A stretch of DNA of 35,882 nt from an uncultured archaeon (lineage in GTDB: Archaea; Halobacteriota; Methanosarcinia; Methanosarcinales; Methanoperedenaceae): contig CABMCA010000095.1 of NCBI GenBank assembly GCA_902384525.1, positions 1 to 35,882 on the forward strand. Direction: 5' to 3'. Positions within the stretch are counted from its first letter, which is position 1. Each line of letters starts with the position of its first letter. The translations under genes were made by a program, and so were the position numbers. Positions 5,350 through 6,567 of this stretch are shown in pieces. Below the pieces are notes generated by a model. It ran no database searches and had not been told where the DNA came from. It saw nothing but the letters and a program-made list of their open reading frames with translations.

Positions 5350-5457
5350 CATGAATATTCCGGTTATTTTCGAACTTGAATATAGTACATCTATTCAATG
5401 TTTTTTCTTTTTAACTGGTTTGATTCGGGTTAATTCGAATGACGACCAATAAAAACA

Positions 5458-5502
5458 AATATATACTTTGCTTTACAACAGGTGTAAAGTATAGTATATA
5501 TT
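5458..5502. promoter_or_regulatory. 45-bp palindromic operator and TATA region upstream of ccdA
   Basis: Two 20-base arms (5458-5477 and 5483-5502) pair at 18 of 20 positions around the 5-base centre ACAGG. The inner seven bases, CTTTACA and TGTAAAG, are perfect. The outer parts contain AATATATACT / AGTATATATT, which look like TATA elements in both directions. The site ends 44 bases before the ccdA ATG. A dimeric repressor or activator bound here would overlap the core promoter. The regulator is not in the window and cannot be named from the sequence; a metal- or redox-responsive winged-helix protein would fit the neighbours. Confidence 0.6.
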
Positions 5503-5546: not shown

Positions 5547-6275
5547 ATGCAACCATCAGAAATTTCTATATTTATCGTATTTTTAGCAGGAGTGGTTACG
5601 ATCATGAAACCCTGCTGCCTCCCGCTTGTTCCTGTGATATTTTCAGGTTCAGGAGGACACAGGCTCAGGCCCCTTTCCATCGTTTCGGGATTGACAGTCA
5701 GCTTTACTACCATGGGTGTTCTGGTTTCAGCATTTGGCGCTACATTTGCAGGATATACTGATTATTTACGCAGCATTGCGATCCTGTTCATAATAAGTAT
5801 GGGTTTTGTGCTTTTTGATGAAGATGTAAATATGGAGTTCATGAAGATATCAGGTTTAATAATGCAGGGCTTGAGAGGAATTGGGTTCTTTAATAAATTC
5901 TCTTCCAAAATGCCGGAAGGAAGCCTGATCGGGGGATTTTTCCTTGGAATGTCACTTGGTGTCCTCTGGATCCCGTGCGTTGGTCCGATACTCGGGGCTG
6001 TGCTTGCTCTTGTCGCATCAGTAGGAAATACGACTTACGGCGCATCGATGCTATTCGTTTATTCCATAGGCATGAGCCTCCCTATGCTTTCTATTGCCTA
6101 TTATGGAAAAAAGGTCACGAACAGGTATAAATGGTTTTCAAAAAACGGAGAGCTTCTTAAAAAACTGTCCGGTCTTGTACTGATAGTTATTGGAGTAATG
6201 CTGCTCTTTGGTATTGATAAGCTGATTATTAAGTTGCTATCCCCTTATTTCCCAACTACATTTTATGGAATATAG
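5547..6275 (+). CDS. ccdA: CcdA-type membrane thiol-disulfide transporter
   Basis: Integral membrane protein of the CcdA/DsbD-beta family, which passes reducing equivalents from cytoplasmic thioredoxin to the outside, for example for cytochrome c maturation or repair of extracytoplasmic disulfides. It has 242 residues with about six membrane segments. The two diagnostic half-motifs are visible: KPCCLPLVP near residues 22-30 and WIPCVGPILGAVLA near residues 133-146. Each contributes a redox cysteine next to a proline. The start is preceded by AGGT eight bases upstream. No thioredoxin or cytochrome maturation gene lies beside it; its convergent neighbour is a YHS metal-binding protein. The palindrome upstream suggests tight regulation. 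The family call is firm; the acceptor protein is unknown. Confidence 0.9.
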   Translation: MQPSEISIFIVFLAGVVTIMKPCCLPLVPVIFSGSGGHRLRPLSIVSGLTVSFTTMGVLVSAFGATFAGYTDYLRSIAILFIISMGFVLFDEDVNMEFMKISGLIMQGLRGIGFFNKFSSKMPEGSLIGGFFLGMSLGVLWIPCVGPILGAVLALVASVGNTTYGASMLFVYSIGMSLPMLSIAYYGKKVTNRYKWFSKNGELLKKLSGLVLIVIGVMLLFGIDKLIIKLLSPYFPTTFYGI

Positions 6276-6305: not shown

Positions 6306-6497
6306 TTACCAGAATTTCCACCAGGGTTTCTTGTCACCCATGCCGACGGGTCCGCTTTTGATATATTTTTCAGGCTCGGAATCAAATGTTTTCTTACATC
6401 CGGGAGAACAGAAATAATAGGTTTTTCCTTTATATTCTGATTTGAACTTTGCTGTATTTTCATCTACCTGCATACCACAAATAGGGTCTATTTGCAT
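6306..6497 (-). CDS. YHS-domain metal-binding protein
   Basis: A 63-residue stand-alone YHS (TRASH-like) domain. It has the N-terminal block DPICGMQVDE and the second cysteine block YYFCSPGCKKTFDSEPEKY; the cysteines would bind a metal such as copper or another heavy metal. In other proteins this domain is found beside copper ATPases and metal sensors. The ATG at 6506 is only one base from the Shine-Dalgarno AGGAGG (6508-6513, complement), while the ATG at 6497 lies ten bases from it, the same spacing as in kdpA, so I choose 6497. The tail after the domain ends in tryptophan-rich PWWKFW. It is convergent with ccdA, 30 bases apart, and may work with it in metal or redox handling. Confidence 0.85.
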   Translation of the reverse strand: MQIDPICGMQVDENTAKFKSEYKGKTYYFCSPGCKKTFDSEPEKYIKSGPVGMGDKKPWWKFW

Positions 6498-6543
6498 ATT
6501 TTTCATTCCTCCTTAGTTTTCTTATGTATTGATCATATATGTA

Positions 6544-6567
6544 ATTTACGTGTTATATAAAGTAAAT
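6544..6567. promoter_or_regulatory. Inverted repeat around a TATA box between the YHS gene and nadA
   Basis: ATTTAC (6544-6549) and GTAAAT (6562-6567) form 6-base arms around a 12-base spacer that contains the symmetric TATA box TTATATAA (6553-6560). It lies 47 bases upstream of the YHS start and 94 bases upstream of nadA, so it most likely serves the YHS gene. The TTTAC half-site also occurs in the ccdA palindrome, a possible hint of shared control. Confidence 0.4.

Follow-up and report, generated by a model that had tools for sequence, protein, structure and literature searches.

The DNA analysed here, hereafter the window, is a stretch of 35,882 nucleotides that makes up contig 95 of a 2.92-Mb Methanoperedenaceae genome in 130 contigs. 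It carries a ccdA gene and, facing it, a gene for a small YHS-domain protein, together with a long palindrome that overlies the ccdA promoter and a degenerate version of its central part upstream of the YHS gene (Table 1). No Rfam element reached the gathering score in the window.

Table 1. Features around the ccdA promoter (window coordinates)
Feature	Position	Strand	Basis or remark
45-bp palindrome	5458..5502	.	arms 5458-5477 and 5483-5502, 18/20 pairs, 5-base centre
Putative TATA box of ccdA, ATATATAC, the left outer arm	5459..5466	+	sequence; TATA-like columns kept on the left side only
Putative operator core CTTTAC-N7-GTAAAG, here CTTTACAACAGGTGTAAAG	5471..5489	.	conservation at ccdA and blaI promoters
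Right outer arm, TATAGTATATATT	5490..5502	.	symmetric in the window; dyad without conservation
ccdA, 242-aa DsbD_TM protein (PF02683)	5547..6275	+	thiol electron transfer for cytochrome c maturation
Small YHS-domain protein (PF04945), convergent with ccdA	6306..6506	-	Pfam; relatives beside the operator
Degenerate operator TTTATATAACACGTAAA, one mismatch, upstream of the YHS gene	6545..6561	-	site search

The first-pass annotation had drawn attention to a near-perfect palindrome over the ccdA promoter with TATA-like sequence in both outer arms, and both observations stand. Palindromes with 18 of 20 matching pairs and a gap of 0-8 bases were absent from 100 dinucleotide shuffles of the window and from 500 shuffles of the local 260 bp, and the symmetry persists to arms of 25 nt at 84%. 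Genes matching ccdA are present in 59 of 60 genomes; the 30 best-matching loci were read and, with the exclusion of two paralogues (L045 and L046, 54-55% identity), gave 28 orthologues from the genus and family. In 26 of these 28 best-matching orthologues an exact TTTAC-N7-GTAAA lies within 200 bp upstream, where the background rate in the genome would give about 0.0009 sites. A doubled dyad occurs in four of the 28 promoters. The element at the ccdA core promoter thus retains the operator-like character claimed for it, in the form of a short conserved core.

The annotation had further proposed that the full length serves a dimer of dimers. When the 26 ccdA-promoter sites are aligned on their centres, the partners at dyad positions 4-8 match in every site, so that the expected conservation in relatives is seen for the core; at positions 9-22, in the outer arms, matches occur about as often as column composition predicts. 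Left of the centre, positions 11-18 are mostly TATA-like, and the right side has no shared sequence. One alternative holds that the whole palindrome is either a single operator occupied by two cooperating dimers, or else a functionless chance extension of AT-rich promoter DNA; its ground is the symmetry of the 20-nt arms in the window, which is largely retained in two relatives (L018 and L019). However, the lack of an outer dyad beyond composition across the 26 promoters and the five invariant core positions make this account highly improbable. The long two-dimer operator in particular is rejected because conservation of the dyad does not reach into the outer arms, and sites typically consist of a single dyad of 17-19 bp. 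What the aligned promoters share is the 17-19-bp core together with a TATA box; the full 45-bp symmetry extends this unit locally. One other candidate element upstream of ccdA, TTCG-N8-CGAA at 5424-5439, resembles the MsvR redox operator box (TTCG-N7-9-CGAA); it is not retained in L018 or L019 and was set aside.

The two ccdA orthologues in which the site is absent are those of G019 (L025) and G017 (L036). The gene in G017 lies directly behind genes for a 76-aa membrane protein and a P-type-ATPase-like protein that resembles one in L056; this ccdA may be transcribed from a more distant upstream promoter, and the ATPase-like gene ahead of it is a hint of a metal link. In a separate orthologue (L039, from G012) an in-frame TGA at codon 23 stands where the PCCLP motif should have its first Cys codon. 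Selenocysteine was considered and discarded at this position, and a broken gene or an assembly error is likelier, because no tRNA-Sec scored over the cut-off in the 31 genomes of the genus.

A scan of the 2.92-Mb genome found exactly one match to CTTTACA-N5-TGTAAAG. Counts of the short core in this genome alone (13, against 14 for a reversed-pattern control) are uninformative since they show no excess, and the longer core with two mismatches likewise gives 24 matches against 30 in the control. Summed over the 31 genomes of the genus, on the other hand, CTTTAC-N7-GTAAAG occurs at 90 sites versus 12 for the reversed pattern; 27 of the 31 have at least one 19-bp site and four have none. From L017 and L140-L205 we collected 72 distinct 19-bp sites, 67 of which lie no more than 700 bp upstream of selected gene families, some of them seen once or twice; this figure is descriptive rather than an independent test because the families were chosen from the same sites. 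They include YHS proteins, two kinds of CcmG-like thioredoxin-like proteins, CcmE, CcdA, CcmH, a Fer4_5 membrane protein that we label NapH-like, an ABC ATPase and others. The names are those of Pfam models, and one of the scans behind them covered the first 110 residues of most of its proteins. The commonest single family is a 63-aa YHS-domain protein, beside 18 of the 72 sites.

Two further comparisons are independent of this choice of families. First, among 28 of the 30 best-matching YHS loci obtained by protein search, 20 have an exact site and two more a site with one mismatch, the YHS gene of the window being one of these two. Second, the 30 best-matching CcmE loci found with the Pfam model (L255-L284) fall into two classes, both of which retain the CxxxY haem motif: the site stands upstream of all 16 members of class A, which has SFSNALS-type N-termini and a His-rich tail, and of none of the 14 members of class B. 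Only class B was found in the window's own genome. This genome also has, at L202:1692-2005 (G000:C75), a pair of sites followed only by a 76-aa ORF, and relatives have CcmH behind such pairs; the pair may be a remnant. Elsewhere in the collection, a 104-aa wHTH gene lies beside a site on contig C18, and HxlR-type and PF03965-like genes lie near one on C94.

The site also adjoins a BlaI/MecI-family gene. In the window's genome blaI lies on the minus strand at G000:C10:10145-10501 and codes for a 119-aa protein that matches PF03965 at 40.1 bits (cut-off 22.6) and is 97-99% identical to proteins of the Methanoperedenaceae records FeB_1, BLZ2 and RBG 1, which relates the genome to Methanoperedens. 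One of the 13 short cores of the genome (C10:10505) ends just before its start codon. Exact TTTAC-N7-GTAAA precedes blaI in all 30 best-matching loci of relatives, and a scan of named genomes gave 49 blaI loci from Methanoperedenaceae, other ANME-2, Methanosarcina and Methanolobus, in which the site at the start codon is exact in 44 and has one mismatch in four and two mismatches in one; counting in a 90-bp interval gives 45 exact sites. The geometry is regular: with a relaxed site and 48 of the 49 named loci examined, the distance from the start of the TATA box to the operator is 10 nt in 43 of 45, and that from the operator start to the blaI ATG is 20 nt in 39 of 45. Such a position, behind the TATA box and ahead of the start, is consistent with a repressor site, and the blaI transcript would be nearly leaderless.

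BlaI is present in all 34 genomes of the family, with strong matches also in three genomes of family f2. The link to ccdA reaches less far. Sixteen more distant ccdA genes were read, all of them without an exact site in the nearest 400 bp. Twelve of these come from genomes without a BlaI match, one of which (G035) has a site with one mismatch at its ccdA. The remaining four (G032, G034, G038 and G046) are from genomes that do have BlaI, and the ccdA link is therefore narrower than the repressor.

TRASH-domain copper regulators occur in archaea, and a second candidate for the binder is an Lrp/AsnC-type regulator with a C-terminal metal-binding TRASH domain (C94:30132-30728), which would act as a copper-type sensor and bind the site, with BlaI merely one of its targets. 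TRASH models match the protein, the gene adjoins ccdA in some relatives (G020 and G013), and the exact site stands before its own gene in 21 of the 23 loci, out of 28, in which the start was located (L118 and L119 left out); moreover, G019, in which no Lrp-TRASH protein was found, is also without the ccdA site. However, the ccdA site persists in six genomes in which no full-length orthologue was found (G002, which has only a fragment, G011, G014, G016, G026 and G028), which disfavours it as the sole binder, whereas BlaI is found throughout the family. Further, the f2 relative in G034 (L116) has no site, though the blaI of that genome has one. A further genome without Lrp-TRASH, G029, yielded no ccdA orthologue. 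We hence consider binding by the Lrp-TRASH protein improbable; its gene looks like a target of the site's regulator, which both likens it to the archaeal TRASH copper regulators, in that a gene of this kind carries the site, and sets it apart from them, in that several genomes lack it and yet retain the site at ccdA. BlaI is favored as the binder by its distribution, being in every family genome and having the site in 30 of 30 blaI loci.

That the binder is a winged-helix repressor of a metal-responsive kind had been suggested from the core sequence. The family part of this suggestion is upheld, the likely binder being of the BlaI/MecI/CopY family by its match to PF03965, which was recovered in all 27 members of an alignment of archaeal BlaI sequences at E<=0.001; a response to metal is a possibility. 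The family assignment is itself not a sharp one: the MarR and TrmB models score nearly as well as PF03965, a search of the PDB with a first BlaI profile gave four matches, none of them named BlaI or MecI, and a wider profile placed MecI and BlaI at E of about 0.02, behind many MarR entries. The CopY model (TIGR02698) gives 23.1 bits against a cut-off of 121.95, and Cys-X-Cys, the C-terminal metal motif of CopY, occurs in none of the 27 sequences; metal or thiol sensing, if real, is more likely to reside in a partner protease.

A candidate partner is encoded next to blaI. In Methanoperedens a protease gene follows blaI with a 4-nt overlap (all of the 30 blaI loci but L083 were covered), and it adjoins blaI within 80 nt in 44 of the 49 named loci, with two more further downstream (L246 and L252). 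The protein has about 225 residues (224 in one count), three N-terminal hydrophobic helices and an HExxH motif. An alignment of 40 members, from 39 of the 44 protease loci and the window's genome, contains five invariant residues, Cys9, Cys13, Met66, Cys68 and Met71, at identities down to 40%. Helices 1 and 2 are joined by a Lys/Arg-rich loop and another follows helix 3; positively charged loops, by the positive-inside rule, face the cytoplasm. The N-terminus and the 67-71 loop are accordingly predicted outside and the HExxH inside. This topology rests on sequence since the AlphaFold models are of low confidence (pLDDT 60 and 64, the latter for the model considered here), with helices visible and a poor catalytic part. 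The three cysteines and two methionines on the predicted outer side suggest sensing of Cu(I) or of thiols.

As for the point of cleavage, passages of PMC9834060 place the cut that BlaR1 of S. aureus makes in BlaI between Asn101 and Phe102. The archaeal BlaI profile (19-114) aligns to residues 9-104 of the penicillinase repressor 1sd4 with an E of 0.021, and Asn111-Phe112 falls on the Asn101-Phe102 bond by the end points of this alignment only. Asn-Phe is present in 25 of the 27 BlaI members, those without it being L242 and the paralogue in L121.

It is conceivable that the site is indeed a BlaI operator, and that the repressor senses a cytoplasmic ligand directly, the M48 protein being a general membrane quality-control protease. 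The domain models give this account some ground: M48 matches all 40 proteases and M56 only eight (E<=0.001), the protease of the window's genome scores above the M48 cut-off (37.4 bits, cut-off 20.3) and below that of the BlaR1-type M56 (19.8 bits, cut-off 31), and there are weak matches to HtpX models. A second HExxH-containing gene follows the protease in many loci, and direct sensing of metal is described for CopY, a member of this repressor family, in passages of PMC7253601. The overlap of the protease gene with blaI in Methanoperedens, the co-conservation of the pair as far as Methanosarcina, the invariant Cys and Met residues on the predicted outer side and the conserved Asn-Phe at the cut position suggested by the alignment end points tell against it, and we regard direct ligand sensing as unlikely, though somewhat less so than binding by Lrp-TRASH.

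Our preferred reading is thus that the site is an operator, and that a repressor blocks its promoters until a membrane M48 protease cleaves it. The conserved element and its position, the recurring set of genes, the pairing of repressor and protease and the invariant residues are observed; we infer binding, cleavage, topology and signal, and place the probability of this reading at roughly 0.7. In this circuit the core at 5471-5489 would be the operator at which an archaeal BlaI/MecI-family repressor, the product of a gene on another contig, would bind as a dimer to the TTTAC and GTAAA half-sites, downstream of the TATA box and ahead of the expected transcription start. Bound repressor would block transcription of ccdA and of its own gene, and also of a regulon that serves cytochrome c maturation outside the cytoplasm, the reduction of thiols and the handling of metals. 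The predicted outer face of the protease, with Cys9, Cys13, Met66, Cys68 and Met71, would sense a signal, for which Cu(I) and the thiol/disulfide state are the likeliest candidates, upon which the cytoplasmic HExxH site would cut the repressor, probably at Asn111-Phe112, and the regulon would be derepressed. The genes relevant to the signal comprise those for CcdA, thioredoxin-like proteins, proteins with YHS or TRASH domains and the His-tailed CcmE; haem or an oxidant might be the signal instead. More tentatively, and with less than even odds in our estimate, Methanoperedens and its methanogen relatives might share a one-step proteolytic signalling circuit, in which a minimal M48 protease detects Cu(I) or the oxidation of thiols through its extracytoplasmic Cys3-Met2 face, the BlaI-type repressor is cut, and a second, stress-dedicated cytochrome c maturation set (CcdA, His-tail CcmE, CcmH, CcmG-like thioredoxins and YHS) is switched on beside the constitutive one.

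The closest known parallels are the BlaI-BlaR1 and MecI-MecR1 systems of Staphylococcus aureus and Bacillus. As in these, a small PF03965 winged-helix repressor lies beside a membrane HExxH protease, the site is found at the repressor's own promoter with TACA/TGTA half-sites, and Asn-Phe may, by the alignment end points, occupy the same cut position. The divergent arrangement is shared by six Methanosarcina and Methanolobus loci (L243, L245, L246, L247, L251 and L252), whose layout resembles a bla divergon: the blaI-protease pair and a set of ABC transporter genes point away from each other, and at least two additional operators separate them. The divergent genes, covered only in part in L251, include in L243 a MacB-type permease, an ATPase and an FtrD-like lipoprotein. 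There are differences as well. Unlike BlaR1, the archaeal protease is of the M48 type, is short, presents a Cys/Met face and has no Pfam penicillin-binding sensor domain; further, the neighbors of the sites are cytochrome c maturation and metal genes, and the promoters are archaeal core promoters. The operators of the BlaI/MecI/CopY family are described in passages of PMC7253601 as TACA/TGTA half-sites with a 2-base spacing, TACANNTGTA; the window site, TTTACA-N5-TGTAAA, has these half-sites, 5 bases apart instead of 2, and at other sites the inner base is often G or C. Since neither the 2-base spacing, nor an M56 score above the cut-off, nor a penicillin sensor is found, we class the archaeal pair as a variant of BlaR1-BlaI, which it would resemble in its working if the inference holds.

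The BlaI/MecI/CopY family also includes a copper-responsive branch. With the CopY/CopR regulators of Gram-positive bacteria the archaeal protein shares the Pfam family, the TACA/TGTA half-sites and a possible copper link; it differs from them in having no Cys-X-Cys (27 of 27), in having a partner protease and in the spacing of the half-sites. A BlaI/MecI/CopY-family gene is named in a genome survey of Haloferax mediterranei, the passages of which that name it mention no operator, protease partner or target set, in distinction from the situation here (PMC9240420). On the side of the targets, CcdA, CcmE, CcmF and CcmG-like relatives beside the sites recall the Ccm machinery of Methanosarcina acetivorans, in parts of the account of which CcdA and thioredoxin-like proteins supply thiols for haem attachment (PMC9084895). 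The M. acetivorans control genome gave no PF03965 match. Passages of PMC9012536 credit freshwater ANME-2d with CcmH and ANME with a duplicated CcmF.

The open-licence PMC literature returned no account of a regulator of cytochrome maturation in anaerobic methanotrophic archaea, nor of BlaI or a penicillinase repressor with Methanosarcina. One paper that touches on Methanoperedens, a transcriptional regulator and cytochrome c biogenesis deals with other subjects. The word 'repressor' is absent from the text of the M. acetivorans Ccm study (PMC9084895), and neither 'BlaI' nor 'repressor' is found in the ANME comparison (PMC9012536) or the review PMC4429474.

Finally, the analysis yields the sequence of a putative operator together with candidates for its repressor, for a sensor protease, whose key residues can be named, and for the target genes. 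Anaerobic methanotrophic archaea carry many c-type cytochromes. Given that named Methanosarcina and Methanolobus records have the same pair, the circuit may be testable in cultivable methanogens. Should the circuit prove real, the logic of BlaR1 and BlaI, known for antibiotic resistance in bacteria, would have been moved to a metabolic function in archaea.
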